DNA of 64,000 nt from Alistipes sp. GTDB lineage: Bacteria; Bacteroidota; Bacteroidia; Bacteroidales; Rikenellaceae. The notes under the pieces were generated by a model. The model was not told the origin of the DNA. It searched no databases and was given only the letters and a program-made list of their open reading frames with translations. The stretch spans positions 62,001 through 126,000 of the forward strand of contig JAGAOZ010000024.1 in assembly GCA_017623505.1 (NCBI GenBank), written 5' to 3'. Of the stretch, positions 7,786-50,039 are shown in pieces. The number at the start of each line of letters is the position of its first letter. Within the stretch, counting starts at the first letter, position 1. Both the position numbers and the translations under genes were made by a program.

Positions 7786-7790
7786 ACTAA

Positions 7791-8935: not shown

Positions 8936-9619
8936 CTACCCTACACCCAAATCACTATTTTCCAGTAGCACCTCTATCTTTGCATCATCTTTTATCATAG
9001 GATAGACCTCTGCTGCAAACCATCCAGCCAACTCCTCGTCACGACAAACAGAGGTTGTATTGTTGCAAAATACATTGACACTACAATACTCAAACAGTTG
9101 CTTTGCAGTCGCTATATCAGCCAATATTCGCTCCTTGCTATCGGCTTCGGTGCAGCATAAAAGGCATACACCATCAAAATATTTTGCTACATCTTGCGCC
9201 GAGACCTCCTCTACTACACCCTTATTCCACGCTCTGCGCAACTCAGCCGAGAAGCTCTCAATACCACAGCGAAATTTCACCTTGACACCTTCGAATTGTG
9301 CCGCAAAACGCTCTAACTGATGCCGATACATATAGTGCGCCTCAAACCACAAAGTATGAATCCGCTTCGCCTTCACAATCTTCTTCAGCAGAGCCAAACT
9401 TCGAGCATCCAACTCCATTGCCGAGCCGGAGTTGATTACATCCAATACCCCAAACTCGCCCGTAACCTGCTCTAAAACAAGCCGATTCACCTCATACGGA
9501 TTATCACTCGTATCGCTGTAATAATCACAAAACGTACAGCGTCCCCAGCGACAGCCTTGTCCCTGCAAAAGTATAAACTCACGCGGAAACTTATCCTCTA
9601 TTTTGCTGTAACGAATCAT
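8936..9619 (-). CDS. Radical SAM protein, candidate queuine lyase (QueL-like)
   Basis: A short (227 aa) radical SAM enzyme. The Cys cluster CRWGRCTFC (C-x4-C-x2-C, residues about 22-30) would hold the 4Fe-4S cluster that cleaves SAM. The spacing is one residue wider than the classical CxxxCxxC. The gene overlaps the end of the queuosine-precursor transporter gene by 29 bp, so the two products are probably made together. In gut bacteria such as Clostridioides difficile a small radical SAM enzyme (QueL) splits queuine to preQ1 in a queuine-salvage operon with a transporter. That makes QueL an attractive but unproven identity; another radical SAM function is possible. Confidence 0.6.
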   Translation of the reverse strand: MIRYSKIEDKFPREFILLQGQGCRWGRCTFCDYYSDTSDNPYEVNRLVLEQVTGEFGVLDVINSGSAMELDARSLALLKKIVKAKRIHTLWFEAHYMYRHQLERFAAQFEGVKVKFRCGIESFSAELRRAWNKGVVEEVSAQDVAKYFDGVCLLCCTEADSKERILADIATAKQLFEYCSVNVFCNNTTSVCRDEELAGWFAAEVYPMIKDDAKIEVLLENSDLGVG

Positions 9620-10286
9620 TATAATCAGTATGACGTTTTACCCAACCTATACAGAGATATGCCAACGGAGTACCGAAAACAATCTCAATAATCAGCTTTG
9701 AGAAGTATTGGAATAGCATCATCATTATCAAATCGTGTGTCGATACCACACCCAAGAAACCTATCAGCACAAACGGCACAGAATCAAACATATAGCCTAT
9801 AATAGAGCTACCAATAGTACGTACCCACAAACGACGTCCTTTAGTCTTGGCCTTAATTCGCTCCATATAATACGCATTAGATAGCTCACCCAACAAAAAA
9901 CCCACAAGCGAGCCCAACACGATACGTGGCACATAGTTAAACATCAGATTATAAGACTCTTCCGTCGCTTGCATATAATCAGGCGAAGGCAACCACACTC
10001 CTATCTGCGTACAGACAACCATGAGGATATTAGCCACCAAAGTAATTATTATCACCTTACGTGTTGTCTTATAACCCCACAACTCAGTGATAACATCACC
10101 CAACATATATGCAAATGGGAAAGTTATTGTGCCGGCATCAAAATAGAAGTAACCAAACAGACTGATTACCTTGACTGCCATAATATTCGACACTATATAA
10201 AGTGTCGCAAACAAAACCACACACACCAAAAAGATAGTGGTGATACTGATTCGGTTTTTGAAAGGGTTTTCCGATACCTTATTCAT
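9591..10286 (-). CDS. yhhQ: Queuosine precursor transporter (YhhQ/VUT family)
   Basis: An inner-membrane importer for preQ0/preQ1 or, in some lineages, queuine. The 231-residue protein has about six hydrophobic segments. It contains the family signatures FDAGTITFPFAYMLGDVITE and WGYKTTRK, and a conserved late FDSVPFVLIGFLG. Its 3' end overlaps the downstream radical SAM gene. In the family, substrate specificity has shifted between precursors in different lineages, so the cargo here cannot be read from sequence alone. Confidence 0.88.
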   Translation of the reverse strand: MNKVSENPFKNRISITTIFLVCVVLFATLYIVSNIMAVKVISLFGYFYFDAGTITFPFAYMLGDVITELWGYKTTRKVIIITLVANILMVVCTQIGVWLPSPDYMQATEESYNLMFNYVPRIVLGSLVGFLLGELSNAYYMERIKAKTKGRRLWVRTIGSSIIGYMFDSVPFVLIGFLGVVSTHDLIMMMLFQYFSKLIIEIVFGTPLAYLCIGWVKRHTDYNDSLQQNRG

Positions 10287-10304
10287 ACGTCAATAAATTT
10301 TGTG

Positions 10305-10312
10305 CAAAAGTA
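10305..10312 (-). promoter_or_regulatory. Candidate -7 element of yhhQ
   Basis: The minus strand reads TACTTTTG (TAnnTTTG), 19 bp before the yhhQ ATG. No TTTG at 19-20 bp upstream was found. Confidence 0.4.
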
Positions 10313-10344
10313 GTAATAAAATCACAAAATTCAATATCTAAAAC

Positions 10345-11250
10345 TTAATCCTTTGATTTTAAGCCCTTTGTAATACATCGACGCATTATTACGAGATACT
10401 TGGCCTTAGCAAAACGCATCGTTACTCCATACCACAAAGCAATAGCCAAAGTGGCTACCCATTTACAGTATTCAACCATCATGACCTTTCGCTCACGATG
10501 GAAATAACGAGCTCGTTTACGCTGACTAACACCAATGTTAAAGCTCAGACGCTCAAGGTATTCGCGCGTTAGTTTCTGCTCAGGAATAATATGATACATC
10601 ACAGCCTTCGGTACGTAATAATACTTCGCGCCGGCAATCTCCAAACGCTCAAACAAATCGCTCTCCTCGCCACCTAAAAGCGTCTCGCCAACATAACCCA
10701 ACGAGGTGTCAAAAACGCCGTAACGACGTATCGCAGAGCGACGAATAGCCATATTACCACCACCCGGAATACGCCCTTTAGGAAACAGCTTCACTTTATC
10801 TCCGAAATACATCGTGTTTGCAATAGGACGCTCGGTAAAAGAGGACATCCAACGAGGCTTGCGGGCCGCATACTCTGCCACAATCGGACCTCCCGCCGCC
10901 ATTGCATCAGGCTGATTATCAAATAGTTCTATGTAAGCATCAATAAAATCGGGACCTATCTTTTCATCATCATCCAAGATAGCTATATACTCTCCCTCGG
11001 TCTCACGGAAACCGCGGTTACGAGCATACGAAAGACCTTGGTTGGGCTCATTGACCATACGGATATTAAAACCACTATGCTCTGCAATGAACTCCTCGAA
11101 GCATTTTTCGGTATCGTCAGTCGAATTATTATTCACCACAACACACTCCCAATCATATCGAGAGGCATTTTGCTCAACAAGCGATTGCAGAGTCTGCATC
11201 AACATTGCCGAGCGGTTATAAGTCGCAATAATAACGGAAAGTCGTATCAT
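10345..11250 (-). CDS. Glycosyltransferase family 2
   Basis: Transfers a sugar from a nucleotide donor to an unknown acceptor, probably for a surface glycan. The GT-A fold is evident: LSVIIATYNR at the N-terminus, NNNSTDDT, a DDDEKIGPDF metal-binding DxD region, and GGEESDLFERL later (acceptor/ED motif). A late hydrophobic stretch (ATLAIALWYGV) could anchor it to the membrane. An in-frame extension to 11313 exists, but a TATATTTG promoter element at 11270-11277 lies inside it, so I start at the ATG at 11250. The gene stands alone. Confidence 0.87.
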   Translation of the reverse strand: MIRLSVIIATYNRSAMLMQTLQSLVEQNASRYDWECVVVNNNSTDDTEKCFEEFIAEHSGFNIRMVNEPNQGLSYARNRGFRETEGEYIAILDDDEKIGPDFIDAYIELFDNQPDAMAAGGPIVAEYAARKPRWMSSFTERPIANTMYFGDKVKLFPKGRIPGGGNMAIRRSAIRRYGVFDTSLGYVGETLLGGEESDLFERLEIAGAKYYYVPKAVMYHIIPEQKLTREYLERLSFNIGVSQRKRARYFHRERKVMMVEYCKWVATLAIALWYGVTMRFAKAKYLVIMRRCITKGLKSKD

Positions 11251-27159: not shown

Positions 27160-27240
27160 GCATCGCTCGTGATTCCGGCGGAAACACTCCGCACGCTTGC
27201 AACTCGCTAACCTTGTGCAAATTGCATTTGGGTTCAAAAA

Positions 27241-27262
27241 TTTTTGTCGACTTTTTGTCGAC
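27241..27262. repeat. Perfect 11-bp tandem repeat (TTTTTGTCGAC x2)
   Basis: Two head-to-tail copies end exactly before the stop codon of the leftmost prophage gene. They may be protein-binding sites (for example arm sites for an excisionase) or part of the prophage end. Confidence 0.7.
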
Positions 27263-27592
27263 TTAGCGATTTTTCCGACGACATATTTGCAACACATCAT
27301 CACGCAGAAAGAGGTTCTTACCACCTTTCTTTATAGGCGTGATAATACCTCTCGCGATCCAATTACTCAGGGTGCTCTGCGAAACATCGTAGTCTCGCTT
27401 CACCTCCTCCGTGGTGCAAAACTTCATCGTGTCGCCCATTGCCAACTTGATAGCGTCAACAGTCTGGGATGACATCTGCTCAGCAACGCTATTCGCTATA
27501 TCCCGAGCAAAGCTCCGCAACTCATCTGCCGTCATTGTTATTGTGATGTTAGCCCCTGCTGAAGCCAAAGCATCAATAAACTCTCTACCCAT
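27263..27592 (-). CDS. Helix-turn-helix DNA-binding protein, excisionase-like
   Basis: A 109-residue protein. The C-terminal 50 residues form a MerR/excisionase-type winged helix (CTTEEVKRDYDVSQSTLSNW, then GIITPIKKGGKNLFLRDDVL). The N-terminal half is a short helical segment (TADELRSFARDIANSVAEQM) that may dimerise. Such proteins are common at the ends of Bacteroidetes integrated elements and act in excision or regulation. It is the last gene of the leftward early arm and sits next to a tandem repeat that could be its site. Confidence 0.75.
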   Translation of the reverse strand: MGREFIDALASAGANITITMTADELRSFARDIANSVAEQMSSQTVDAIKLAMGDTMKFCTTEEVKRDYDVSQSTLSNWIARGIITPIKKGGKNLFLRDDVLQICRRKNR

Positions 27593-30529: not shown

Positions 30530-30787
30530 TCAATTATTGAACTTTTCTGTTTTAATATATCCACACTTCTTACAACGATACTTTTTAACTGTTACATCAT
30601 AACTATAAAAACCACCCAATTCCCAGTCATTTCCTTCGTCAACAGTTTCCGTAATAGTATCTGTACCAATATATTCAAAGTCGTGCCTTGATTTGTCCGG
30701 ACAACGTAGATCGTCATTATTCATACACAATGACCAACCGACCAACACTCCGATAATGAACGCAATTGTTAAATATAACCAAATCAT
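30530..30787 (-). CDS. Membrane-anchored zinc-ribbon-like small protein
   Basis: 85 residues. An N-terminal membrane helix (MIWLYLTIAFIIGVLVGWSL) is followed by a soluble part with CPDKSRHDF and CKKCGY, which could form a zinc ribbon. It overlaps the PAPS-reductase-fold gene by 4 bp. Function unknown. Confidence 0.55.
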   Translation of the reverse strand: MIWLYLTIAFIIGVLVGWSLCMNNDDLRCPDKSRHDFEYIGTDTITETVDEGNDWELGGFYSYDVTVKKYRCKKCGYIKTEKFNN

Positions 30788-31605
30788 AGTTTAATCTTAA
30801 AAAAGTCCTCTAATCGCTGCTTCCAATCCTCTTTGCCGAAGAGTGATGTAGAGGCTGCTTGAAATGTATCGTAATCTCCGAAGAATACGTCGTGAGCGAA
30901 CAAAGCATAAGCGTTGCCATATTTCTTTACCGATGCAACGTAAGGATGCTGTTCTAAATAGATTTTTCCCGCATCGCACCACGCTTTGACCATCCTCGGG
31001 TATCGCATAAAGTCGCTCAAGCCATTATCCGATGCCATCGGGCAACCTATACAACCAAGCCTCTCTTTCACGTTAAACTTGCCCTGTTCATCGTAATATA
31101 TAGGATGGCATTGTATTCCGTGAGCCTCGATAAAGTCTTTGACATCCCTATCGCTCCAATCGAGGATAGGAAGAAACACATTAACGTGGTCGTGCTTGTT
31201 GTACATTCGGCAGATGACAGGCTCTTTGTATCGCTTCGCCCTCGCTGTACTCTCGCACTTACGAATCCCTTGCACTGCATTGTCGAGTATCTTATACTCT
31301 TTCAGCACCTCGCAGCAGAATCTCGCTCTGCGTGTAGGGAATCCCTTTTTACGCACAATGTCGAAGAACGACATCGTAGGTCTCATAACCTCCACTCCAT
31401 TGTCCTTGCAATGCTTTATAGTGTAGGGTGGGTCTATCGTGGTATTCTTGTAGATTGCTCGATAAGGTATGCCAGCCTCCTTTGTTAAAGCAAGAATAAC
31501 ATCGCTGTCCTTGCCACCGCTATAAGATACCTCTATCGGGTCATCGCCCTTATACATCCGCAGAATCTTGATTGCTCTGCGTTCTTTATCCGCTAACTCA
31601 CTCAT
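30784..31605 (-). CDS. PAPS reductase-fold (CysH/DndC-like) protein
   Basis: An adenine-nucleotide alpha-hydrolase of the PAPS reductase family. The PP-loop is SYSGGKDSDV. Downstream come RRARFCCEVLKEY and LGCIGCPMAS, the paired-Cys pattern of phage and DndC-like members that may hold a Fe-S cluster, absent from simple CysH. In phages such proteins are thought to modify nucleic acids or nucleotides rather than assimilate sulfate, but the reaction here is unknown. The ATG at 31605 is preferred; a TTG lies at 31611. A second, different member is at 46738. Confidence 0.8.
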   Translation of the reverse strand: MSELADKERRAIKILRMYKGDDPIEVSYSGGKDSDVILALTKEAGIPYRAIYKNTTIDPPYTIKHCKDNGVEVMRPTMSFFDIVRKKGFPTRRARFCCEVLKEYKILDNAVQGIRKCESTARAKRYKEPVICRMYNKHDHVNVFLPILDWSDRDVKDFIEAHGIQCHPIYYDEQGKFNVKERLGCIGCPMASDNGLSDFMRYPRMVKAWCDAGKIYLEQHPYVASVKKYGNAYALFAHDVFFGDYDTFQAASTSLFGKEDWKQRLEDFFKIKL

Positions 31606-31942
31606 ATTCAAACGTTTCTATGAATATTCCTATACATTTATCACGTTGCCATATTTCTATCCTATGTTGTTTGGAATCAAAAATATGTCTTTGCTTAATC
31701 CCTCGCCATCGCAGCTTATTTTTGGTTATCTCACCCTTGATGGGTGGTGTTACATTATTGCGAAGAACATACTCTGACCACTTGTGTATCTTTTGCGACA
31801 CCTCATTTAGCTTCTTCTCTATCTCTTTTTCAGCCTCCGCAAGCAAAGCATCCACTCCCTCTTTATCGTAGGTACTTATCGCCCAATTTAGATTGACACT
31901 TTCGCCTATAGTTTGAAGTGTCTTGCTTACTATACTACTCAT
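31598..31942 (-). CDS. Hypothetical phage protein
   Basis: 114 residues. The first 60 are helical and acidic (EGVDALLAEAEKEIEKKLNE), followed by a basic segment (ITKNKLRWRGIKQRH). Its stop codon lies 7 bp inside the PAPS-reductase-fold gene. No family recognised. Confidence 0.55.
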   Translation of the reverse strand: MSSIVSKTLQTIGESVNLNWAISTYDKEGVDALLAEAEKEIEKKLNEVSQKIHKWSEYVLRNNVTPPIKGEITKNKLRWRGIKQRHIFDSKQHRIEIWQRDKCIGIFIETFEYE

Positions 31943-32355
31943 ACCACAATCTCCTTTTCTACGCCAGCTAACCTCAAAGCGTGTTGGAGTTGGTGGACAT
32001 TCCTTAGTCCCCTTATTATCGCTAATAACTCTCCTATTCGTCTTTTTTCTCGCTTGAGTTCAAACATATAACCATCTGATTGTCGGCGTACACCAATGGT
32101 TATATTATCATCTATATCTATCTTGTGTAGGTATGCGTCATTCTTTACAAACCCATTCTTCTCCAATATCTCTGGCGTGATGGGGATAGGACAAACTCCG
32201 GCTTCCGTAAGGTTAGTGATGGTCCCTGCTTTTGTTTGCACATTGATTACATATCCATCGCTCCAACACTCCATACCTCTAATTTGTGCGATAATTCCGT
32301 TTTTATCACTCACCCAATCCCCTACGGATAGGTCGTTAATCTTTAATTGTGCCAT
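31939..32355 (-). CDS. Hypothetical phage protein
   Basis: 138 residues starting MAQLKINDLSVGDWVSDKNG, with a small beta barrel at the start and a helical end (RGLRNVHQLQHALRLAGVEK). Similar proteins are common in Bacteroidetes phages. It overlaps the end of the reverse transcriptase gene by 13 bp, so it is probably translated from the same transcript. Confidence 0.6.
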   Translation of the reverse strand: MAQLKINDLSVGDWVSDKNGIIAQIRGMECWSDGYVINVQTKAGTITNLTEAGVCPIPITPEILEKNGFVKNDAYLHKIDIDDNITIGVRRQSDGYMFELKREKRRIGELLAIIRGLRNVHQLQHALRLAGVEKEIVV

Positions 32356-33539
32356 AACTTTTTACTAAGTAATCGTTGAATTTTCTGTTTCATTTTATAT
32401 CGTGCCCGAAGGCTTATTTTGCCATAATCTCTGCCTATAATGATAAACTTTCGCCACTTGGATAATAGACGGCTGACCAACCTCTTACGAATGTTGTATG
32501 AGCTGTGATGTCGCATTAGTCCTAAATAGCTATTGACCGGAGCTATGATACTCTCAGGAGTGGCGTATGTATCCAGGTGCCGCACAGATTGGAAAGCATT
32601 ATTGACTGTCCTATTAGCTACATATGTTCTATAGGGCTTAATGACTGCTCCGACAAACTTAACCCCTTTAGTGTAGTGCTGTAGGTAAAACTTAGTAGGA
32701 TGTAACTCCACCCCAGCTGTATGCAACAGTATTGCTCTTATCTTTGGGATAGCATCAAGTAGAATGCTCTTGCTGTCGCTTATCAGGACCATATCATCAA
32801 CGTATCGTGCCATCTGTATCCCGAGCGTGTCAGTTATGAAATGATCTACGTCGTTAAGCAACAAGTTTGCAGCCATCTGAACAACCAAATCGCCAATAGG
32901 CAATCCCTTATCTCTGCCGTTGGTAAATAGGCTTTTGTGGGGCTTTATGTGCCGCCATAACGAGACATTGCCACATCTGCGACAATATCTCTCTGGGGCG
33001 TTGAGCAACACTTTACGCAATAGGAACAAGAGAGTATCTTTGTCCTCCTCCTGATAATACTCAGAAATAATGTTTACAACCTTTTCGCAGACAAGAGCTC
33101 TGTCTATTGACATAAAGAACCCTTTAATATCTACCTTCATCACGTATCCATCAGAGGTATAATTATTGGTAATATCGCGGGTGGTCTTAAACACATATTG
33201 CTGAGCCGCCAACACGCCTTTTTGCCGGCGACAATTGAAAGTTGCAGGTATCATCAGTTGTTCTGCGATTGGCTCTATCCTCTGCCTTATCCAATGGTGG
33301 ATAATGCGGTCCCTAAAATGCGACGCAAAAATCTCTCTGTAATCTGGTTTAGTGATAACAAAGGAAATAGCCTCTTTTTGGGTATAAGTGCCTGATGTAA
33401 TCTCGTTGTGTAGGTTTATTAACTCCTCTTCATAGTGCACCTCGAACTCGGAAGCACTTGCTGTTCTACTCTTATTTCGTCGACAATCCCAATATGCTTC
33501 GAATAGGCTTTCCAGGGATATGCGATACATAGCTTTCAT
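32343..33539 (-). CDS. DGR reverse transcriptase
   Basis: It copies the template-repeat RNA into cDNA with errors at adenines, driving diversification of the target genes. RT motifs are present: FRDRIIHHWI, VDIKGFF (first catalytic Asp), GLPIGDLVVQ (motif 4; DGR enzymes usually have IGxxxSQ, here Ser is Val), ARYVDDMVLIS (catalytic YVDD) and GVKFVGAVIKPY. A maturase or endonuclease domain is absent, unlike group II intron RTs. I start at the ATG at 33539. A GTG at 33563 is in frame, but it lies inside the template repeat. The length (398 aa) and the neighbours (avd, TR, two VR genes) confirm a DGR. Confidence 0.93.
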   Translation of the reverse strand: MKAMYRISLESLFEAYWDCRRNKSRTASASEFEVHYEEELINLHNEITSGTYTQKEAISFVITKPDYREIFASHFRDRIIHHWIRQRIEPIAEQLMIPATFNCRRQKGVLAAQQYVFKTTRDITNNYTSDGYVMKVDIKGFFMSIDRALVCEKVVNIISEYYQEEDKDTLLFLLRKVLLNAPERYCRRCGNVSLWRHIKPHKSLFTNGRDKGLPIGDLVVQMAANLLLNDVDHFITDTLGIQMARYVDDMVLISDSKSILLDAIPKIRAILLHTAGVELHPTKFYLQHYTKGVKFVGAVIKPYRTYVANRTVNNAFQSVRHLDTYATPESIIAPVNSYLGLMRHHSSYNIRKRLVSRLLSKWRKFIIIGRDYGKISLRARYKMKQKIQRLLSKKLWHN

Positions 33540-33556
33540 ATATTTGTATTGAAATT

Positions 33557-33640
33557 CGGACACCGCACGAGCATTGTAGTTGTTGTTACGGTTTTCATTG
33601 TTGACATTTCCATTGTTGGTATTGACAACAAACGCAGTAT
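33557..33640 (-). repeat. DGR template repeat (TR)
   Basis: On the coding strand the repeat is rich in AAC/AAT codons (a VNNEN stretch, then RNNNYNARAV), the codons whose adenines DGRs mutate. The match to VR1 covers 33557-33635 and to VR2 33557-33640. The constant 3' end (CTCGTGCGGTGTCCG) is shared. After it the TR reads GAATTT where both VRs read GCTTTT, the expected IMH* versus IMH difference. It lies 17 bp upstream of the RT start codon. The frame continues into the RT gene, but a TAG closes it upstream. Confidence 0.92.
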
Positions 33641-33746
33641 ACCTCGCAATAGTGATATAACTCTAAATGAGAGTCAGCGAGCTCCTTTTCATTAAAAATA
33701 TGCTCTGGATAAGTAGCCGTAGCCACTTAACATCTGGCTTGCTATG

Positions 33747-34097
33747 TTAGTCAAGTTTTTCTTTCGTCGCACGCTTCCATCCAGAGAGCTGTTTCTTAAT
33801 ACCGCTGAGTTCAACAAACAGATGTGTTGCTCGTTTAAGCGATATAATTTTCGTTTCGTTAGCGAGCCTGAGATATGTGGATAATAGCTCTAATTCACTC
33901 AGCATAATAGATATCTCGTGCAGCCGCTCGAGGTGCGTTGAAGAGTCGTATGCCCTTTGCAATGATTGTAGAGCATTTAACGCTGAGTCTATGATTCTAT
34001 TACCTATCGTATACCGATGTATCTTAGGTATATTCTCTACATCTTTCAGCAAAGTGGCATTGAGCCGAAATAAATCTCTATATATAGGTAAATTCAT
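33747..34097 (-). CDS. avd: DGR accessory variability determinant (Avd)
   Basis: A small basic four-helix-bundle protein (116 residues) that binds the RT and template RNA and is required for retrohoming in studied DGRs. Typical marks are LPIYRDLFRLNATLLKDVEN at the N-terminus, then KIHRYTIGNRIIDSAL in helix 2 (family pattern FPKxxRYTLGxxI), and a Lys/Arg-rich end (GWKRATKEKLD). It lies between target 1 and the TR, a common place. The ATG at 34097 is preferred over a TTG at 34103. Confidence 0.88.
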   Translation of the reverse strand: MNLPIYRDLFRLNATLLKDVENIPKIHRYTIGNRIIDSALNALQSLQRAYDSSTHLERLHEISIMLSELELLSTYLRLANETKIISLKRATHLFVELSGIKKQLSGWKRATKEKLD

Positions 34098-34114
34098 TTG
34101 CAAAGGGTTTAAGA

Positions 34115-34138
34115 CCGCCGCCTGTTAACAGACGGCGG
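34115..34138. repeat. Hairpin/cruciform downstream of VR1
   Basis: A 24-bp near-perfect palindrome (6-bp GC stem, one C-A mismatch, then CTG/CAG around a TTAA centre) begins 12 bp after the target 1 stop codon. In the Bordetella phage DGR a similar hairpin just past the VR stimulates homing. No T-run follows on the coding strand, so a terminator is less likely. Confidence 0.65.
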
Positions 34139-34150
34139 AAGAGTTAAAGT

Positions 34151-34513
34151 TTATTGAAAAGCGGACACCGCACGAGCATCGTAGTTGTGGCTACGGTTCT
34201 CATAGCAGACAAGTCCATAGTCGGTAAGGACAACAAACGCACATCCACTATAACGCCACGAGAGTTCGGAGGTCCAATACCAACCCTCAATGAGGTCTTT
34301 GCCTAATGCAGCTAACTCTTTATTGATAGCGTCTTGATACTTGGCTATAAGTCGCCAATTCTCTACTGTCTCATCACCGCCGCCATTTTCCTTACAGAAT
34401 TGCATCGAAGATTCGTGATTGCCTGTATGCTCAGCATACGACACTCTTAACTTTTTGCCTTCAGCCTCGAGGATGAAACTATTCTCCTCGGCTGTAAAAA
34501 TCATATTTTCCAT
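34151..34513 (-). CDS. DGR target protein 1 (120 aa)
   Basis: A short protein whose C-terminus is the variable region in a C-type-lectin/DUF1566-like fold: GWYWTSELSW, then AFVVLTDYG and ARAVSAFQ. The N-terminal 75 residues are a small helical domain (RLIAKYQDAINKELAALGKD) with no signal peptide or recognised virion-attachment domain. Diversified residues lie in the VR at 34162-34240. It shares the last layout with target 2 but is about half its length and may be a reduced copy. It is probably a ligand-binding module acting with another protein. Confidence 0.82.
   Translation of the reverse strand: MENMIFTAEENSFILEAEGKKLRVSYAEHTGNHESSMQFCKENGGGDETVENWRLIAKYQDAINKELAALGKDLIEGWYWTSELSWRYSGCAFVVLTDYGLVCYENRSHNYDARAVSAFQ
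34162..34240 (-). repeat. DGR variable repeat 1 (VR1)
   Basis: Same length as the template (79 bp), no gaps. The 13 differences (coding strand, for example AAT to CTT, AAC to TGC, AAC to CAC) all fall on template adenines; every G, C and T is unchanged. The chance of this without adenine-directed mutagenesis is negligible. Confidence 0.93.
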
Positions 34514-34524
34514 ATACTTAAAAA

Positions 34525-35211
34525 TTAAAATTCAAAGTCTTCAAAATGAAAAGCGGACACCGCACGAGCATTGTAGCCGTTGATGTGACGGTAGTCAATG
34601 AAGACAAGACCATTGTTGGTATTGACAACAAACGCAGTATTATTGCTCTTTTTAATAGTCGAGGTCCACAACCAGCCACACACTACAAATCCACCCATTG
34701 TAAGCATCGCTTTATTAATGTCCTTGAGATGCTTAGCTATCACTTTGGCTGTGGCTAATGTCGGGAGGTCTCCGCCACATTTAGCACAATATGCAGTTGC
34801 CGGAGAGCCTTCGAAGGGATATTTTGCGTCATTCCACATATCACCTTTCACGCCATTGTGAGCGAGGAAAATAGCGCTTGTTGCTGCACAGTTGTCAAAG
34901 GTCTCGGTATCATAGACAATATCATCATACTCTTTTACATCTGTTGAGCCGAAAGGTACAGCAGCCTGTGGTTCCAAGTGCACCATAAATGCCGTGTCAT
35001 CCGTAACGACACCAACAGCCAATGGTGTATAGCTATCATTCCACTCTGTTGCTTTGACCGCTCTCTTATCTTTCGTCAGGCACCACACACCGAGGGGTCG
35101 GCTGAATAAGGATTTTCCAAAATTGATTTCCAATACTTTCTTGAAACTCTCGTCGGCGGTCTTATATATTCGCCGAGCATCGTCTAAGGATAATTTAATT
35201 GTCTTTTCCAT
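34525..35211 (-). CDS. DGR target protein 2 (228 aa)
   Basis: The larger diversified protein. Residues about 1-110 form an N-terminal domain I do not recognise (SLDDARRIYKTADESFKKVL). From about 140 on is an FSMP/DUF1566-like lectin fold (CGGDLPTLATAKVIAKHLKD, CGWLWTSTIKKS). It ends in the variable region (NGLVFIDYRHINGYNARAVS) and a tail FHFEDFEF. There is no signal peptide. The gene overlaps the VRR-NUC gene by 17 bp, so it is embedded in the early operon and not next to tail genes. Confidence 0.83.
   Translation of the reverse strand: MEKTIKLSLDDARRIYKTADESFKKVLEINFGKSLFSRPLGVWCLTKDKRAVKATEWNDSYTPLAVGVVTDDTAFMVHLEPQAAVPFGSTDVKEYDDIVYDTETFDNCAATSAIFLAHNGVKGDMWNDAKYPFEGSPATAYCAKCGGDLPTLATAKVIAKHLKDINKAMLTMGGFVVCGWLWTSTIKKSNNTAFVVNTNNGLVFIDYRHINGYNARAVSAFHFEDFEF
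34554..34640 (-). repeat. DGR variable repeat 2 (VR2)
   Basis: Aligns to the template with substitutions only at adenines and one extra codon (GGC) next to the AAC run. If the template that wrote VR2 had four AAC codons instead of today's three, GGC is explained by two A-to-G changes. Its 5' (coding) 21 bp, including AATACCAACAATGG, are unmutated. Confidence 0.9.
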
Positions 35212-35596
35212 AACTTTCCAAATGTTCTATAAATAGATTTCTACATACATCTAAGTCTCGTACTACCTCATATCTGTAGCCCATCAGTATCGCCAACCTC
35301 TGGAATCGCTTCTGAGGCTTCGACTGCGTGCCGCTCAGGGCTTTAAGCTCGATAAACAGGCCTCGGTAATCCCTACTACCCACGCAGAGGAACAGGTCGG
35401 GGAAACCGGCTCTTACACCAAGAGCTTTGAAGCGCATTGCCTCACGGCTGTTACGTTTACCGCCGTTTGGCGAATGATGTAACAGCATCTCCCAATCTTC
35501 GAGATTATCTATGCCGAGCTTATCTCCATACTCGCAGAATAAGTTGCGCCATACCCTAATGACTGCCATTTGCAGGCTATCCTCTAAGTGTCTCAT
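35195..35596 (-). CDS. VRR-NUC domain nuclease
   Basis: A 133-residue PD-(D/E)XK nuclease of the stand-alone phage VRR-NUC type. The core is GVRAGFPDLFLC (catalytic Asp in PDLF) followed by GLFIELKALSGTQSKPQ (ExK plus the conserved Q). Such proteins act on branched DNA intermediates, fitting the replication genes upstream. It overlaps target 2 at its 3' end and the DUF4406 gene at its 5' end. Confidence 0.88.
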   Translation of the reverse strand: MRHLEDSLQMAVIRVWRNLFCEYGDKLGIDNLEDWEMLLHHSPNGGKRNSREAMRFKALGVRAGFPDLFLCVGSRDYRGLFIELKALSGTQSKPQKRFQRLAILMGYRYEVVRDLDVCRNLFIEHLESYGKDN

Positions 35597-35906
35597 TATC
35601 TTCGTAGATTATGTTAATACCTAATATGCGAGCTATGCGGTACTCGATACGAGCTCCTTTACTATCTCGCCAATCAGTGAGCATGTATACATCGTCACAT
35701 CTCACCAGATGCCATATGCACACTACCATACATCGGAGCCAGGACCACCACTCTCGACATAAGCGAGTGGGATTAACGGTAGTATATCCTTGGTGGCGTA
35801 AACGCACCTCTGCTGTGTGGAACTTTTGTACAACTCGCATATAGTCAAGCCCTGATATTTTGCCGGCGATATATATGCGTCTATCGTCGGTAGCTATCCC
35901 CTTCAT
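35577..35906 (-). CDS. DUF4406 protein (nucleoside deoxyribosyltransferase-like)
   Basis: A 109-residue protein with RRIYIAGKISGLDY at the N-terminus and YMLTDWRDSKGARIEYRIAR further on, as in DUF4406, a phage family related to nucleoside 2-deoxyribosyltransferases. It may act on nucleotide pools. The segment between, around VNPTRLCREW, is expected for the family. Two starts are possible; the ATG at 35906 keeps the overlap with the DnaC-like gene short (26 bp), while 35957 would add 17 residues. Confidence 0.75.
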   Translation of the reverse strand: MKGIATDDRRIYIAGKISGLDYMRVVQKFHTAEVRLRHQGYTTVNPTRLCREWWSWLRCMVVCIWHLVRCDDVYMLTDWRDSKGARIEYRIARILGINIIYEDNETLRG

Positions 35907-36588
35907 AGTTGATCTTATTACAAATCTCTTTAATTCTATCCTCTGTTCGGTCGCCATATATGGATGCTATGCCAACCTCGTCAAGGTTAGTTGTGATAAT
36001 CGTTGGCAGGCACTTGTCGTAGCGGTAGTTGATTATATCCACCATATATGTGCGCTCAGTGCCGTAGTTTTTAACTACCGAAGGCTCTACACCTAAGTCA
36101 TCGAGCAGTAGTAGTGATGCCGTCTTACAGGCCCGGAGTGCCTTCTCATCCATATCTACCACCTCACACGCTGTTGCAAAATGTGGAGCTCCTACATCAT
36201 ACTCCCAATATCTGGCATAGGCAACCTCCTCGGCTGTCATTCTGCCACAATTAGCCAGAGCCTTATGATAATATCCCTTGATGTTATCTATCATCGATTG
36301 TACGGCCCGCAGCAGCGTTGTCTTGCCGGTGCCTTTGTCGCCATAGAGCAACAATGATGGCTTATGTGCAGGGTTATCCTTAATGAGCCAATGCGCTACT
36401 TTCTCGATGCGCTGAAGAGTTTCAGAATCTATCTCGATACTACCGTTGCGGTATGTTACTACCCTCTCGTATGCGGAGCGCAGTAGAGCGATAGACTCTT
36501 CCGCAGTAAGCCGTAGCTTATATGTCTGTGATGCGGTTGCCTGACCTGCCATAGGTTGAGTCAAGGCGGTAAGCAGTTCTTTGTTCAT
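35881..36588 (-). CDS. DnaC-like ATPase, helicase loader
   Basis: An AAA+ ATPase that would load the host DnaB helicase at the phage origin. Walker A is YGDKGTGKTTL, Walker B is LLLLDDLGVEP, and the sensor region is PTIITTNLDEV. The N-terminal 80 residues resemble the small helical part of Bacteroidetes phage DnaC proteins. It overlaps the initiator-like gene by 71 bp in a different frame. The phage encodes no helicase of its own in this window. Confidence 0.85.
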   Translation of the reverse strand: MNKELLTALTQPMAGQATASQTYKLRLTAEESIALLRSAYERVVTYRNGSIEIDSETLQRIEKVAHWLIKDNPAHKPSLLLYGDKGTGKTTLLRAVQSMIDNIKGYYHKALANCGRMTAEEVAYARYWEYDVGAPHFATACEVVDMDEKALRACKTASLLLLDDLGVEPSVVKNYGTERTYMVDIINYRYDKCLPTIITTNLDEVGIASIYGDRTEDRIKEICNKINYEGDSYRR

Positions 36589-37273
36589 TGTGGTTTACTT
36601 TTTCTTTTAGCGCAACTTTTCTTTTTGCCCAGGTGCGAAATGTAAGATAGGCTGAGCGGTTGTTTTTAATCAGTGGCTCCCAGTTATGCATCTCCTCGAG
36701 GAGCTCTTGCATCAGCGATACGCCATACTCCTCTTTCGCCCTCACGAACTGCGAGGGAGTAAACGGCTCTTTCATCTCAAGCACCCTCGGAGCATTGTTT
36801 TTGAGCCACGTATTAAATTTCTCAAAATCTGTGGGGGGAATATCTACGTTAGTAGATAGGGGGGTATTGTTGTTTTCTTTAAGGGTTATATCTTTCCCTT
36901 TGCTTCTTTCCCTTTCTGTAAGGGAAGTTTCTTTTTCGTCTGTCCGATTTTTGTCCGATTTGCTGTCCGATTTTTGTCCGACGCAAGTATCATAATCAAC
37001 TGAAACACAAGAAGTTTGCTGTCCGATTTTTGTCCGATTTGCTGTCCGATTTTTGTCCGATTCCATATAGCCTTTGAGCTCTATCTCCTTGAGGAAAGAG
37101 TGCACCTTATCCCTACCCCATTGGAATAACTGAGCGAGGCAACGGATGCTCGGCAACTCCTCTACCGACATTAAGTAGAGGAGTGCTTCTGCTTCGGAGA
37201 AAGTACGTCTCTTGGTCCAATGTTTGGAGATCAAAAACGAACTCGGGAACTTTAAAAATCGGGGATTACTCAT
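36518..37273 (-). CDS. Phage replication initiator-like protein
   Basis: A 251-residue protein in the position of lambda O, just before the DnaC-like gene. Residues 1-70 contain a winged-helix-like part (RTFSEAEALLYLMSVEELPS, then FQWGRDKVHSFLKEI). The middle is a low-complexity linker with repeated S-DKNRT units. The C-terminus (about 150-235) resembles a DnaD/DnaC-interacting helical region (WEPLIKNNRSAYLTFRTWAK). The linker DNA carries eight iteron-like repeats, a likely origin. Confidence 0.7.
   Translation of the reverse strand: MSNPRFLKFPSSFLISKHWTKRRTFSEAEALLYLMSVEELPSIRCLAQLFQWGRDKVHSFLKEIELKGYMESDKNRTANRTKIGQQTSCVSVDYDTCVGQKSDSKSDKNRTDEKETSLTERERSKGKDITLKENNNTPLSTNVDIPPTDFEKFNTWLKNNAPRVLEMKEPFTPSQFVRAKEEYGVSLMQELLEEMHNWEPLIKNNRSAYLTFRTWAKRKVALKEKVNHNEQRTAYRLDSTYGRSGNRITDI
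36940..37060. repeat. Eight TGTCCGA iterons, candidate phage origin
   Basis: TGTCCGA occurs at 36941, 36952, 36964, 36975, 37020, 37031, 37043 and 37054, that is every 11-12 bp in two blocks. The blocks 36940-36981 and 37019-37060 are identical over 42 bp. All copies face the same way and lie inside the initiator-like gene, as the iterons of lambda ori lie inside gene O. Confidence 0.7.
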
Positions 37274-38402
37274 TTGCTTGCTGTTCTTTCAGTGCTAACC
37301 TTGCGTATGCAGGCAGCTCAAATCGGATTAGACCCTTAGCACCCTCCTCCGCAAAGGAGTCGAATGAAGGGTAGTTATTGTTACGTTTACACTCGGCGAG
37401 AGTGTTAATTGCTTGGTGATACTTGTATCTGCCGCTCTCGAGGTCTTCAGGCGACCAATAAAGCATCATCACCTGATACGGATGTACAGTCTGGAGCACT
37501 ACCATTATCGTGGCAGTAAACTTACGACCTGTGACGTGAGAGATGACATCGAGGTACATACCCTCGGAGAGATCATAGCGATACTTCGTGGCATCGCGCG
37601 CAAATTGGTCAAGAGTCTCAGCAGAGGTGGTCTTGAGTGAGATAACAGCGTTAAAGCCCGCATTCTCCTCTAAGAGGAGTGCATCGGGGCGTACCTTAAC
37701 CTTTAAGCCAGTATCGGGGTCATTAGCGTAGAATGACACCTCACTATCTGCCAATCGCAGCAGCTTAGGGAGTATACCACCGCCATATATCTTATATGCT
37801 CTGCGGATAACCTCAATAATCTGCTTATGCTCGGCAGAGACCGCTATCATACCCGCCTCAGCAAATTTCTGCTTGAGCGACGCCAATATCTCACGCAGTG
37901 CCACCATCGATACATCACGTAGATCGCTTGCCGGCAGAGCAAGTTCCTCTTGGTACCACTCTATCATATTAGTAAGACCCTCCTTTGTGTTGAGCGCAAA
38001 GTCAGGCTCTACACGCACCAGGTCAAACTTGCGAGGCTCAAGGAATGCCGAGTGGCAGAATGTGCCGAGTGTAAAATGGCTCTTCTCCTTCTTGAGACGT
38101 GGGTCCTGGTATATGAGGTAGTGGCGAGGCGTCTTAAGCACCTCTTTGAGTGCCGAGGATGATGTTGCAGGGTGTTCCAGATACGACGACATTGCATCTG
38201 CTGCGACACGGCCATTAACACCTAAGCTCTTACGCGGTACTCGCTTCTTGTGATTGGGGAGATTGTTAAGGCAGTTAATTACAAAGTCATAATCGCTATA
38301 CTTTGTGTGGTCGAACTGAAGTGAGGCTGACATATCGCCAACCTCACAATCAGTCGCAGCCGCCGACAGATCTCTAACCTGGAAAGGAAGATTCTCAGCC
38401 AT
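37266..38402 (-). CDS. PD-(D/E)XK nuclease-like (RecE/Cas4-type) protein
   Basis: A 378-residue phage recombination nuclease. The segment FTLGTFCHSAFLEPRKFD, then VKVRPDALLLEE (Asp) and AVISLKTTSAETLD (the ExK-like S-LKTT) match the phage PD-(D/E)XK exonuclease group (DUF3799-like). It would degrade one strand to start annealing-type recombination. No RecT-like annealing protein is obvious nearby, unless the 131-residue protein encoded just upstream has that job. Confidence 0.8.
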   Translation of the reverse strand: MAENLPFQVRDLSAAATDCEVGDMSASLQFDHTKYSDYDFVINCLNNLPNHKKRVPRKSLGVNGRVAADAMSSYLEHPATSSSALKEVLKTPRHYLIYQDPRLKKEKSHFTLGTFCHSAFLEPRKFDLVRVEPDFALNTKEGLTNMIEWYQEELALPASDLRDVSMVALREILASLKQKFAEAGMIAVSAEHKQIIEVIRRAYKIYGGGILPKLLRLADSEVSFYANDPDTGLKVKVRPDALLLEENAGFNAVISLKTTSAETLDQFARDATKYRYDLSEGMYLDVISHVTGRKFTATIMVVLQTVHPYQVMMLYWSPEDLESGRYKYHQAINTLAECKRNNNYPSFDSFAEEGAKGLIRFELPAYARLALKEQQANE

Positions 38403-38800: not shown

Positions 38801-38837
38801 AATTGAAAAATTTAAGTTTACTGAAAAAAGGAATGTG

Positions 38838-38908
38838 TTGAGCTACTGAGATTCGAACTCAGAATGACAGAACCAAAATCAGCAGTGTTACCATTACACC
38901 ATAGCTCA
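38838..38908 (-). tRNA. Phage tRNA-Gln (TTG)
   Basis: A full cloverleaf: 7-bp acceptor stem (TGAGCTA/TAGCTCA), D arm, T arm with TTCGAAT loop and 5-bp stem, and anticodon loop TTTTGGT giving anticodon TTG. The anticodon stem has one T-T mismatch and one G-T pair. No CCA is encoded. It is a standard glutamine reader, not a stop suppressor. Confidence 0.82.
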
Positions 38909-43987: not shown

Positions 43988-44878
43988 ATGAACAACTATT
44001 TCGCAACTATCAAAGACATTGTATTGAGCGTAGGCACAACAAAAGAAGACAAGATCAAGAGATTGCAGTCAGATCTTAAGTGCTCAAAGTATGAGGCAAA
44101 CCACTACTATCAGTTAGTGATGCACGTAGAAGGTAACAAGCCAAAAGAGCCAACAACAGCCTTTACCCTGGGTGTAGAGATTGAGTGCTTTGGCATTAAC
44201 AAGATGCAAGTACGCTCAATGTTGGCAGATAAGGGCATTACAGCCTTTGAGACCGGCTACGACCATAACGACCAGAAAAAGGCTTACAAGTTAGGGCACG
44301 ACGGCTCAATAGCAGGTTCTCAGCCTTGCGAGGTAGTATCGCCTATATTGCACAACCTGGCGTCGCTCAAAAAGGTGTGCGAGGTGATCAATGCTTGCGG
44401 TGCACAAGTAAATCGCTCTTGCGGTATGCACATACACGTAGGTGCTGCAAAGTTCACTGTTGAGCAGTGGGTGCGTATCATTAAGAATTATGCAGCGATA
44501 GAGGGCATTATAGACAGCTTTATGGCTCAATCGCGTAGAGGCGATAACAACCACTATTGCAAGAGCATCAAGGGCTGTGCAGAGCGTTTGCAGGGCGTAA
44601 GCGATATGGGCGATATTATGACAGCCTTTTACCACGACCGCTACCACAAGCTCAATGTAATGTCATACCGCAATCACAAGACAATCGAGTTTAGACAGCA
44701 CCAGGGCACAACAGACTTTACCAAGATTAAGGCATGGGCTGAGTTCTTAGTGGCTCTCATCAAGCACTCGATGACCAATACCGAGGTAATAACAGCAACA
44801 ACAATAGACGAGTTGCCATTCTTGACCGCTACACAAAAGGCGTATTTCAATGACCGCAAACAACAACTAAACAGATAA
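43988..44878 (+). CDS. Amidoligase family (COOH-NH2 ligase) enzyme
   Basis: A glutamine-synthetase-fold ligase that joins a carboxyl to an amino group using ATP. Family marks are FTLGVEIECFG (metal/ATP Glu residues), HDGSIAGSQPCEVVSPIL, and SCGMHIHVGA with the conserved His pair, then TIEFRQHQGT. The N-terminal 45 residues are an extra helical region. Phage and bacterial members occur with a class II glutamine amidotransferase that supplies ammonia, as here in the next gene. The substrate (peptide, cell-wall or protein side chain) is unknown. Confidence 0.88.
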   Translation: MNNYFATIKDIVLSVGTTKEDKIKRLQSDLKCSKYEANHYYQLVMHVEGNKPKEPTTAFTLGVEIECFGINKMQVRSMLADKGITAFETGYDHNDQKKAYKLGHDGSIAGSQPCEVVSPILHNLASLKKVCEVINACGAQVNRSCGMHIHVGAAKFTVEQWVRIIKNYAAIEGIIDSFMAQSRRGDNNHYCKSIKGCAERLQGVSDMGDIMTAFYHDRYHKLNVMSYRNHKTIEFRQHQGTTDFTKIKAWAEFLVALIKHSMTNTEVITATTIDELPFLTATQKAYFNDRKQQLNR

Positions 44879-45826: not shown

Positions 45827-45898
45827 TGCGGGGTAGTGCAGTGGTTACCACGGTTGGGTCGTGTCCAACAGACACAAGTTCGATTCTTGTCCCCGCTA
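45827..45898 (+). tRNA. tRNA-like gene, anticodon by position CGT (Thr)
   Basis: A cloverleaf folds with a perfect 5-bp anticodon stem (GTTGG/CCAAC), T arm with TTCGATT loop and 6 G-C acceptor pairs. Position 1-72 is an unpaired T-T. The loop GTCGTGT gives CGT at positions 34-36, but the loop is atypical (G32). The acceptor (GCGGGG/CCCCGC) equals that of the host initiator tRNA. The CCA is not fully encoded (ACA). A His (GTG) reading would need a shifted loop. Confidence 0.6.
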
Positions 45899-45929
45899 CA
45901 AGTTCTTTCAACCAATAAACTGTAAAACT

Positions 45930-46737: not shown

Positions 46738-47427
46738 ATGCTGCCCATTGAACACGCACAACAAGTGATAGCTTCGGTCAGGAAGAACACTGACCGGGCT
46801 ATCCTTTTCTATTCCTGTGGAAAAGATAGTGAGGTGCTGTTAGATCTTATGGCACCCCACTTCAAGGAGATTATATGCGTGTTTATGTACTTCGTAAAGG
46901 GTTTGGATCATATTGAGAATAACCTAAGATCTGTTAAAAGCAGATACCCCAATGTAAAGATAATGCAGGTGCCACACTGGACACTCAGCCGAGTGCTAAG
47001 ATGTGGATTGTATTGCGTCCCGAATCCAAATATTAAACTCATATCCTTGAAAGATATTGACGAGTCTGTACGGCTAAGGACAGGAATACAATACACATTT
47101 TATGGAATGAAGCAAAGTGATGGGCTCAACCGCAGACTAATGCTTAGGGGCTATGATATGGAGGCTATAAGCAACACTAAGAAAGTATACCCACTTAGCA
47201 CCTGGAAGAAGGCTGATGTTATGGCATACGTGAAAGCAAGAAAGCTCCCAGAGCCAATAGCATACAACAATAACAAATCGCAAGGATTAACATTTGTTCC
47301 AGAGGTGTTTAATTACCTTAAAATGAATTATCCTCAAGATTTAGAAAGAATATATGATGCATTCCCATTATCTCGCAATGTCCTAATCCGCTATGACGAA
47401 GAAAAAAGAAAAACAGCCCAAGTATAA
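46738..47427 (+). CDS. PAPS reductase-fold protein, IbrA-like
   Basis: 229 residues with the adenine-nucleotide alpha-hydrolase PP-loop variant FYSCGKDSEVLLDLM, and STWKKADVMAYVKARKLPEP late. It overlaps by 35 bp a ParB-fold gene. This pair matches the IbrA/IbrB pair first named in E. coli prophages. The biochemical role of such pairs is unknown; nucleotide or DNA modification is a common proposal. Just upstream of the terminase genes, it is likely a late or packaging-linked function. It is not close to the other PAPS-reductase-fold protein of this prophage. Confidence 0.78.
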   Translation: MLPIEHAQQVIASVRKNTDRAILFYSCGKDSEVLLDLMAPHFKEIICVFMYFVKGLDHIENNLRSVKSRYPNVKIMQVPHWTLSRVLRCGLYCVPNPNIKLISLKDIDESVRLRTGIQYTFYGMKQSDGLNRRLMLRGYDMEAISNTKKVYPLSTWKKADVMAYVKARKLPEPIAYNNNKSQGLTFVPEVFNYLKMNYPQDLERIYDAFPLSRNVLIRYDEEKRKTAQV

Positions 47428-48141: not shown

Positions 48142-48585
48142 ATGGGAGCACCTACTAAGAAAATAAGTATTCAGACCTTTCGTAAAGTCGCAAATGCTTG
48201 TGGCGGTATTAAATCCGATATGGCAGCCAACATTGGTGTAGATAGAAATACTATTGCCAACTGGTGCAAGAGCGATGCGAGATATGCACAAGCAATAGAG
48301 GATGCTCAAGAGCGATTTGTAGATCTCGCAGAAAGCAATCTGCGGAAACTCGTTGCCGGAGTGCCGGCTATAAAGAAAGATGAAAATGGGCAATCGCAAT
48401 TCGCAGGGTGGATTGAAAGACCGTCTGAGACAGCAATACTTTTTACACTCAAGACACGAGGAAAGAACAGAGGTTATGTAGAGAGAACAGAGGTAAAAGC
48501 CGACGTAGACGCAACGGTTAAGCCTCGCACTCTAACGCCACAAGAGGCAAAAGAATACGGAATAAAATTGGAGGATGAATATTAG
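48142..48585 (+). CDS. Terminase small subunit
   Basis: 147 residues. An N-terminal helix-turn-helix (RKVANACGGIKSDMAANIGV, then TIANWCKSDARYAQAIED) recognises phage DNA for packaging. The second half (TAILFTLKTRGKNRGYVER) is common in small terminases of this type. The stop overlaps the GTG of the large subunit (TAGTG). Confidence 0.84.
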   Translation: MGAPTKKISIQTFRKVANACGGIKSDMAANIGVDRNTIANWCKSDARYAQAIEDAQERFVDLAESNLRKLVAGVPAIKKDENGQSQFAGWIERPSETAILFTLKTRGKNRGYVERTEVKADVDATVKPRTLTPQEAKEYGIKLEDEY

Positions 48586-50039
48586 TGGTACGAGATGTTG
48601 ATATAGAGAGGACGTTTTGCCTGTCGAGTATGCTAAACTTTACTCGTTATATGTTTAAGCATAAGACAGGTAATAAATTTATCATCGGAGACCACCATCG
48701 TCGTATATGCGCCCTTCTTGACGATATAGTGAGGGGTAAGGTCAAAAGAGCTATTATAAACATTGCACCTCGATACGGCAAGACAGAGCTCGTGTCCAAG
48801 AATTTCATTGCGTATGGGCTTGCCTTAAATCCTCGAAGTAAGTTCATACATCTATCGTACTCCGACGATCTTGTGCTTGACAACTCAAAAGAGATCAACG
48901 AGACTGTTAAATCAGACTACTATCAGCGGCTATTTCCTGAAGTTATAGTTGAGAGTAAGAACACAAAGAAATGGTACACATCAGAAGGTGGCGGCGTTTA
49001 TGCTGTATCATCCGCAGGTCAGGTAACAGGTTTCGGAGCTGGACAAGTCGATAATCCAGACGACGTTCAAGTGGAATTAGACGAGTTTGTCCCTGCGTGG
49101 GAATCCTCATTTGCCGGGGCCATAGTCATAGATGACCCTATAAAGCCAGAGGATGCACTATCAGAGACGATAAGAGAGCGAGTTAACAATCGCTTTGAAT
49201 CAACCATACGAAACCGTGTAAACTCCCGAAATACTCCTATTATAATCATTATGCAAAGGCTGCACGAACACGATCTGTGTGGCTACTTGCAAGAGATAGA
49301 ACCTGAAGACTGGACTGTGCTTTCACTACCTTGTATTTGGTATGATGAACAAGGGACTCCACAACCGTTATGGGAGTTTAAGCATACGCTTGAAGAGCTG
49401 TATAAGATACAAAAATCTAATTCCTTTGTATTCGAGACACAGTATCTGCAAAACCCTAAGCCGCTTGAGGGCTTGATGTACAGTGAATTTAGAACATACG
49501 ATATCATTCCCTACAATAAAAAGTCTATACGCAAGAATTATACTGATACGGCAGACACGGGAAGTGATTATCTATGCTCAATATGTTATGTAGAAACAGA
49601 GACGGCTAACTATATTACAGACATTCTTTTTACTCAAAAGCCAATGGAGTATACAGAACCTGCTACCGCTGAGCTACTCTCGCGTAATCAGGTTGAGATA
49701 TGCTATATTGAAAGCAACAATGGTGGTCGCTCCTTTGGGCGTAATGTGGAAGCACAATGCAGAATAATAGGCAACTATCAAACGACGTTTTTGGCTTTCA
49801 CTCAGACCGACAATAAAAGAGTAAGGATATTTACCCGCTCAAACGAGGTGCAAAACTTAACATTTTTCCCTTTTGGATGGGAACACAAATGGCCCGAGTT
49901 TGCATCACATATTAAGGCATACCGCAAACAACAGGAGTATAATAGTCACGACGATGCAGAGGATGCTCTTACCGGCACAATAGAGAAAAGAGAATATTAC
50001 ACCAAACCGATAATTAGAGACAAGATAGGAATATGGTAA
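48585..50039 (+). CDS. Terminase large subunit
   Basis: The packaging motor (484 aa). The ATPase has Walker A APRYGKTELVSK and Walker B IVIDDPIKPEDA, then TIIIIMQRLHEHDLCGY-like coupling region (PIIIIMQRLHEHD). The RNase H-type nuclease follows: DTADTGSDY, a Glu in CYIESNNGGRSFG, and a final SHDDAEDALTG. The start codon is a GTG overlapping the small subunit stop. It is intact, so packaging is probably functional. Confidence 0.93.
   Translation: MVRDVDIERTFCLSSMLNFTRYMFKHKTGNKFIIGDHHRRICALLDDIVRGKVKRAIINIAPRYGKTELVSKNFIAYGLALNPRSKFIHLSYSDDLVLDNSKEINETVKSDYYQRLFPEVIVESKNTKKWYTSEGGGVYAVSSAGQVTGFGAGQVDNPDDVQVELDEFVPAWESSFAGAIVIDDPIKPEDALSETIRERVNNRFESTIRNRVNSRNTPIIIIMQRLHEHDLCGYLQEIEPEDWTVLSLPCIWYDEQGTPQPLWEFKHTLEELYKIQKSNSFVFETQYLQNPKPLEGLMYSEFRTYDIIPYNKKSIRKNYTDTADTGSDYLCSICYVETETANYITDILFTQKPMEYTEPATAELLSRNQVEICYIESNNGGRSFGRNVEAQCRIIGNYQTTFLAFTQTDNKRVRIFTRSNEVQNLTFFPFGWEHKWPEFASHIKAYRKQQEYNSHDDAEDALTGTIEKREYYTKPIIRDKIGIW

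Follow-up and report, generated by a model that had tools for sequence, protein, structure and literature searches.

The window analyzed here, 64,000 nucleotides of DNA from Alistipes sp. (assembly GCA_017623505.1, contig JAGAOZ010000024.1, positions 62,001 to 126,000), holds much of a prophage in which a reverse transcriptase (RT) gene, an avd gene, a template repeat (TR) and two variable repeats (VR1 and VR2) lie together with two target genes, T1 and T2, whose 3' ends contain the variable repeats (Table 1). An earlier note on this DNA had claimed a complete diversity-generating retroelement (DGR) at this site, and the profile matches and three copies of the repeat bear it out; it is close to certain that the element is a DGR.

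In a profile search of the genome to which the window belongs (2.0 Mb in 29 contigs, 93.7% complete) this RT was the sole RVT_1 match. Its match to phrog_1423, together with its clustering with RTs that adjoin adenine-biased TR/VR pairs, marks it as an RT of the DGR kind. The group II intron RT model returned 84.6 bits against a cut-off of 300, and the St85 model, the only retron model listed, 45.1 bits against a cut-off of 235; a grouping with either class, which the earlier note had named as evidence against its own claim, was thus not found. Its placement of the gene at 32343-33539 was right as to the RT and less secure as to the start, since the open reading frame (ORF) reaches 33563 and the internal ATG at 33539 is as possible a start. 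Avd scored 51.1 bits against bAvd PF22296, exceeding the cut-off of 40, and matched NCBIfam DivGenRetAVD with E 9e-14 but, at 51.7 bits, below that model's cut-off of 80; the element therefore has the accessory protein that is common, though not universal, in DGRs.

A single family of direct repeats (minimum length 30) was found between 31 and 37 kb, in three copies. The TR core comprises 79 nt, 27 of them adenines. VR1 differs from it at 13 positions, all template adenines (hypergeometric P 7.6e-8), exactly as previously counted, and VR2 at 10 positions, again all template adenines (P 5.9e-6), so that the 23 substitutions together show the adenine bias by which the TR/VR pairs of DGRs are recognized. 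In VR2 a 3-nt insertion relative to the TR had been missed by the earlier note, which makes VR2 something other than an exact-length copy of the present template. Directly past the core the AA of the template reads CT in all six VRs of the window and of two related loci described below (L020 and L021), and because it is the same in all six we treated it as a fixed 3' junction and left it out of the counts; in a further locus, L019, only one of the two VRs carries the change, VR2 retaining the template junction. A hairpin downstream of VR1, which could serve either in homing or as a terminator, is also found 3' of VR1 in L021 and in the related contig L074, while no hairpin follows VR2 in the window (z 0.76).

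The adenine-limited changes, the C-terminal position of the VR and the presence of avd and RT genes beside the target are all as in the DGR of Bordetella phage BPP-1, whose target, unlike those described here, is the tip of the tail fibre.

Table 1. Positions of the DGR, its prophage neighbours and repeats or targets in related loci; coordinates are those of the window unless a locus is named.
Feature	Position	Strand	Evidence or remark
DGR reverse transcriptase	32343..33563	-	RVT_1 E 1.6e-17; phrog_1423 'Reverse transcriptase' E 1.2e-75
TR	33547..33640; core 33557-33635	-	overlaps 5' end of RT ORF, same frame
Avd accessory protein	33747..34103	-	bAvd PF22296 E 2.1e-13; phrog_3206 E 3.8e-16
Hairpin downstream of VR1	34115..34138	-	10-bp stem, 4-nt loop; -11 kcal/mol, z -5.32
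VR1	34152-34241; core 34162-34240	-	13/13 substitutions at template A
T1, 120 aa	34151..34513	-	nearly all C-type-lectin-like domain, VR1 at end; weak Lcl_C E 0.096
VR2	34547-34640; core 34554-34635	-	10/10 substitutions at template A, 3-nt insertion
T2, 228 aa	34525..35211	-	N-terminal helices, beta region, C-terminal domain with VR2
VRR-NUC endonuclease-like	35195..35596	-	phrog_824 E 2.1e-29; VRR_NUC E 2.3e-4, 21.6 bits, slightly below cut-off 23.8
DUF4406 / nucleoside deoxyribosyltransferase-like	35577..35957	-	profile matches
DnaC-like helicase loader	35881..36588	-	phrog_50 E 1.6e-26
DnaD-like helicase loader	36518..37273	-	phrog_186 E 3.4e-9
Exonuclease VIII-like	37266..38402	-	phrog_412 E 1.1e-46
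Gene downstream of RT, no assigned function	31939..32355	-	phrog_10066 E 5e-6
Excisionase-like, left prophage end	27263..27592	-	phrog_66 E 2.1e-8
Left candidate attachment repeat, 25 bp	27240..27264	+	right copy at 80077, near tRNA-Arg gene
Terminase large subunit, near start of structural arm	48585..50039	+	phrog_38 E 2.2e-86
Integrase	78701-79789		
L019 (G106) TR	9537-9626	-	
L019 (G106) VR1	10147-10229	-	
L019 (G106) VR2	10537-10626	-	
L080 T2 relative, Mu-like, transposase end	2421-3242		
L081 T2 relative, Mu-like, transposase end	9887-10729		

Location of the DGR within the prophage

The prophage spans about 27.2 to 80.1 kb in the window frame. On its minus strand the genes run in the order exonuclease VIII, DnaD-like, DnaC-like, DUF4406, VRR-NUC, T2, T1, Avd, TR and RT, and then towards the excisionase. 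The VRR-NUC gene and T2 overlap by 17 nt, T2 and T1 are separated by 11 nt, the 183-nt gap between Avd and RT contains most of the TR, and the RT shares 13 nt with the gene that follows it. Given these overlaps and the strand arrangement, the DGR in its entirety seems to belong to the replication operon, and the description of both targets as embedded in the replication arm is upheld. From the same arrangement, early expression of T1 and T2 is likely.

The terminase, portal, capsid, tape measure, tail fibre and endolysin genes lie on the opposite strand, between 48.6 and 73.2 kb. With the targets at 34.2-35.2 kb, the terminase at 48.6, the major capsid gene at 53.9, the tape measure at 58.1 and the tail-fibre region reaching 71.4 kb, the tail fibres are about 28-37 kb from the targets, in a region that extends beyond the window end; the distance previously given for structural genes was 13-30 kb. 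Neither target is thus among tail or structural genes, where the target of a tail-directed DGR would be expected. No third VR rose above background when 94 kb of contig containing the prophage was scored at the non-adenine bases of the template, and a DNA search of the 93.7% complete genome returned the same three repeats and one 18-base chance match but no third VR; the DGR therefore appears to serve only early-operon proteins.

Other genes of the prophage include a PAPS-reductase-like gene downstream of the DGR (30784-31611; also BrxP-like, E 4e-15), which a gene at 46738-47427 resembles by eye, an amidoligase-like gene between the regulator region and the structural arm (43988-44878; phrog_2443, E 7.9e-49), and tRNA-Gln (38837-38908) and tRNA-Thr (45827-45899) genes.

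The same module in related phages

A search of 250 genomes of the family with T2 gave nine matches at E <= 0.001, the window genome included. The protein body of T2 was matched in that genome and in G106, G122, G166 and G201, and the C-terminal half only in G116, G139, G182 and G193. Genomes G106, G122, G166, G201, G256 and G259 are listed in the same genus as the window genome, and the records with the same genes are all from Alistipes sp., five of the six from ruminant gut. In G193 an adenine-biased pair 2.4 kb apart (locus L025, TR 3703-3807, VR 1348-1452) has 8 of its 10 mismatches at A; the contig is absent from the RT search matches of that genome.

The order T2-T1-Avd-TR-RT is found also at L019 in G106, L020 in G122 and L021 in G166, and in the IMG/VR contig L074, and in all five phages with T1 and T2 beside the RT it stands near replication genes. 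L019 is neighboured by DnaD-like and SSB genes, L020 by an SSB-like fragment (by eye), and L074 has a DnaD-like gene about 4 kb upstream; L021 is preceded by exonuclease and SSB genes and followed by a phrog_824 gene, like the VRR-NUC gene of the window, and a terminase. The frames and order of T1 and T2 are preserved in all five modules, the proteins of the relatives being 41-56% identical to those of the window. In a tree of 33 rows, which holds only sequences found with the window RT and so shows grouping among relatives and not a place among all RTs, the five module RTs group as a single clade (support 100/99). The module occurs on at least two phage backbones, the window and G106 sharing their left-arm genes and G166 and G122 sharing theirs.

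These relatives allowed us to compare templates and targets between phages. L020 and L021 are about 92% identical across the module, and they differ at 20 of 90 positions in VR1 and 25 of 95 in VR2, against 18 of 393 in avd, 80 of 1215 in the RT gene and 4 of 90 in the TR (4.4-6.6%), and 68 of 615 (11%) in upstream T2. Every counted substitution from the own template falls at an adenine in both (24 of 24 in L021 and 30 of 30 in L020, 54 in all), and the proposal that variation would be limited to template adenines is supported by this comparison of related phages; in L074 the pattern is less pure (31 of 34). Furthermore, at six non-adenine template columns that differ among L020, L021 and L074, both VRs match their own template in all 36 cells. 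Such concerted marks are hard to obtain by independent point mutation but are what template copying gives, and they point to retrohoming that rewrites both targets; the evidence is comparative, and ordinary gene conversion could also spread marks. Given the adenine-only differences and these marks, it is very likely that the DGR rewrites the 3' ends of T1 and T2.

Early targets in Bacuni and Mu-like phages

The best named relatives of the window RT in the phage collection are the RTs of the Bacteroides uniformis phages F2, F4 and Bacuni_F1 (45-42% identical; F1, F2 and F4 are records MT635598, MT806186 and MT806185). F1 and F2 have a TR/VR pair beside the RT, in a cassette at the tail end, and a second target between DNA polymerase A and cytosine methyltransferase genes, with primase, VRR-NUC and helicase genes beyond. 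The published account of F2 describes single-nucleotide polymorphisms in a 'secondary variable repeat' and puts the first target far away in the genome (PMC8143477); the replication-module location of the distal target was read from the GenBank annotation. Across that module F1 and F2 share 10,391 aligned bases with 16 mismatches and one gap opening, and all 16 mismatches are in the distal target, 15 at template A and one at G. The pair shows recent rewriting of the replication-module target. Between F1 and F4 the tail-adjacent target has 18 differences, 17 of them at A, and the distal target none. These phages thus resemble the window in their RT, in bAvd, in DUF1566-type targets and in a distal target among replication genes, but they keep the RT cassette and the other target at the tail end, and their distal target matches T2 over 73 columns only.

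A T2 relative also lies directly left of a transposase gene at four of four loci, three in Alistipes metagenome-assembled genomes (MAGs; L079, L080 and L081, the last with only the first 42 transposase residues on the contig) and one from IMG/VR (L075). We take these phages to be Mu-like, judging from the transposase (phrog_310) and its neighbours. No RT or Avd stood beside the T2 relative on the contig parts examined, and in the tree the RTs nearest to the window clade are those of the Mu-like phages, though by a branch of less than strong support (84/86). Between L080 and L081, T2 has 14 differences over 726 bases outside the VR, compared with 19 over 95 bases within it, and in L081 a 1-nt deletion in the VR shifts the frame. 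The T2 of these phages is hypervariable, and the templates with which it is compared are candidate sources. About 25 kb away on the L080 contig a gene ending in a VR closes a tail-like cluster (by eye), followed by a first template half at which the contig breaks; another contig of that genome starts in a template and continues into an RT gene. The two contigs are presumably linked, although their template halves are not identical at every base. By eye, mismatches to the template half that the L080 contig itself carries fall at A in 7 of 7 cases for the tail VR and in 6 of 9 for the T2 repeat. The presence on one contig of a separate tail-end VR gene besides T2 suggests that the role of T2 probably differs from the tail role. 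Prophage contigs L106, L107 and L057 likewise break at the template repeat, and remote DGR targets are for this reason probably under-counted in MAGs.

In seventeen IMG/VR contigs whose RTs are 30-44% identical, a single TR/VR pair adjoins the RT in the stretches examined, and in three of these contigs (L113-L115; context by eye) the cassette follows tail-like genes. None of the 17 has T1 or a full-length T2; partial matches occur in five, and in two of these the match begins at residue 108 of the L080 T2 and reaches the end of that protein. In L122 an identical TR/VR pair is reported on both strands (7007-7970), so that TR and VR are not distinguishable there by the adenine rule alone.

Relation to published systems

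In a global survey the DGRs of viral clades have mostly tail-protein targets (PMC8144416), but phage targets distant from tail genes have already been published (PMC8008677, PMC12629997, PMC8143477). In Quimbyvirus (PMC8008677) and in four gut prophage species (PMC12629997) distal targets are near defence or counter-defence genes, and DGR-diversified conflict proteins have been described in bacteria (PMC10907252). Like that of the window, the Quimbyvirus DGR has a target away from the structural genes and a proposed role in phage-host conflict, the function of such a non-structural target being left there for investigation; unlike the window, where no structural target was found, it has an RT in three frames and one target in the structural module. 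The four gut prophage species share with the window a VR distal from tail genes, near counter-defence genes in their case, but their second VR lies apart from the RT cassette, whereas in the window cassette and both targets stand together in the replication operon. Two VRs per template are also found in the Faecalibacterium phages Lelie, Lagaffe_CP and CP11 (PMC11792537), of which Lelie and CP11 likewise have one large and one small target, and in the nd4/nd12 tentaclins (PMC10743442), which are presented as receptor-binding proteins, unlike our reading of T1 and T2. The literature searched yielded no DGR cassette that serves the replication operon alone; the difference from the published systems is that the entire cassette and all targets found lie in that operon, across at least two backbones.

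A possible role for the variable proteins

Hydropathy revealed no clear signal peptide or membrane segment in the small proteins T1 and T2, and both frames stay open in the window despite the 23 substitutions. In the T2 model the N-terminal helices and beta region are of fair confidence and the variable domain of poor confidence.

We consider it somewhat probable that this is a functional DGR integrated into the replication operon of a temperate tailed phage, and that T1 and T2 are variable intracellular binders directed against a host factor. By analogy with known DGRs, the operon would supply Avd, template RNA and RT, the RT would place random bases opposite adenines as it copies the template, and the resulting cDNA would replace the 3' ends of the neighbouring genes T1 and T2. 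The outcome would be a repertoire of variable C-type-lectin-like binders inside the infected cell, perhaps directed at a host factor that itself varies, for instance a defence protein, in place of the receptor binding of tails.

Several results weigh against this proposal. The variable domain was not resolved by the models (mean pLDDT 54.7 for T2 and 75.1 for T1), and apart from RT models on the RT and BrxP/DndC-like matches on the downstream PAPS gene no defence family was matched beside T1 and T2. In hhalign, residues 38-222 of T2 aligned over 186 columns, with a probability of 97.6, to the tail-adjacent target of phage F1 (a single template sequence). The T2 body and a target of the tail type thus have a common origin, and T2 might even so belong to the virion; the distal F1 target aligned over the last 73 columns only, the variable domain (again a single template sequence). 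As to activity, between L074 and L021 the divergence of the VRs (24-25%) does not exceed that of upstream T2 (24%); the Mu-like T2 repeats, compared with the whole template of a similar phage (L058, junction included), have only 17 of 22 (L080), 12 of 20 (L081) and 17 of 29 (L075) substitutions at A; and L019 breaks the adenine rule, with 15 of 28. The L019 TR is without adenines at several sites where its VRs have A (8 C>A or T>A, the inverse of the usual pattern), and this template has perhaps itself been overwritten or is decaying.

The alignment with the F1 tail target is a reason to consider that T1 and T2 might be virion proteins, for receptor binding or decoration, whose genes merely happen to be located in the replication operon, the DGR then changing host range; that both targets share one template, as would suit a common kind of binding surface, agrees with this. 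We nonetheless regard it as rather unlikely. The N-terminus of T2 lies outside the region matched to the tail target, and on one reading of the alignment a tail-type body may have been reused with a different N-terminus. The Mu-like contig has its own tail-end target besides T2, and a tail explanation is further weakened by the absence of a structural target among the repeats found, the tight overlap of T2 with a replication-arm gene and the recurrence of the early position in all five modules. An intracellular role is our best guess, about twice as likely as a virion role.

It is improbable that T1 and T2 are instead made in the lysogen to shield the host from other phages, whether through superinfection exclusion or through sensing encoded by the prophage. 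In favour are the integrase and excisionase of the prophage and the description of DGR-diversified conflict proteins in bacteria (PMC10907252), but a replication operon would be expected to be repressed in the lysogen, and the hydropathy profiles offer no clear signal or membrane segment. Slightly more doubtful still is the idea that the DGR landed beside T2 and persists selfishly, drifting without benefit: the adenines seemingly lost from the G106 template indicate that decay occurs, but the conservation of T1 and T2 frames and order across the modules, and the open frames of the window, speak against it.

Beyond the intracellular role proposed for the window, a broader scheme is conceivable, though we put it forward only tentatively. 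In some temperate phages a complete DGR may have been transferred to the replication operon, where early hypervariable intracellular binders would neutralize or evade fast-changing defences, the lectin body having been recruited by swapping the N-terminus that attaches it to the virion; the Mu-like and Bacuni phages, with one tail and one early target, would then represent an intermediate stage.

Taken together, the data suggest that some phages may hypermutate proteins that act within the infected cell, and since Bacuni F1 and F2 are isolated phages, the question can be put to the test in phages already available. An adaptive repertoire that acts after DNA entry would be at the disposal of phages if these products bind host defence proteins.

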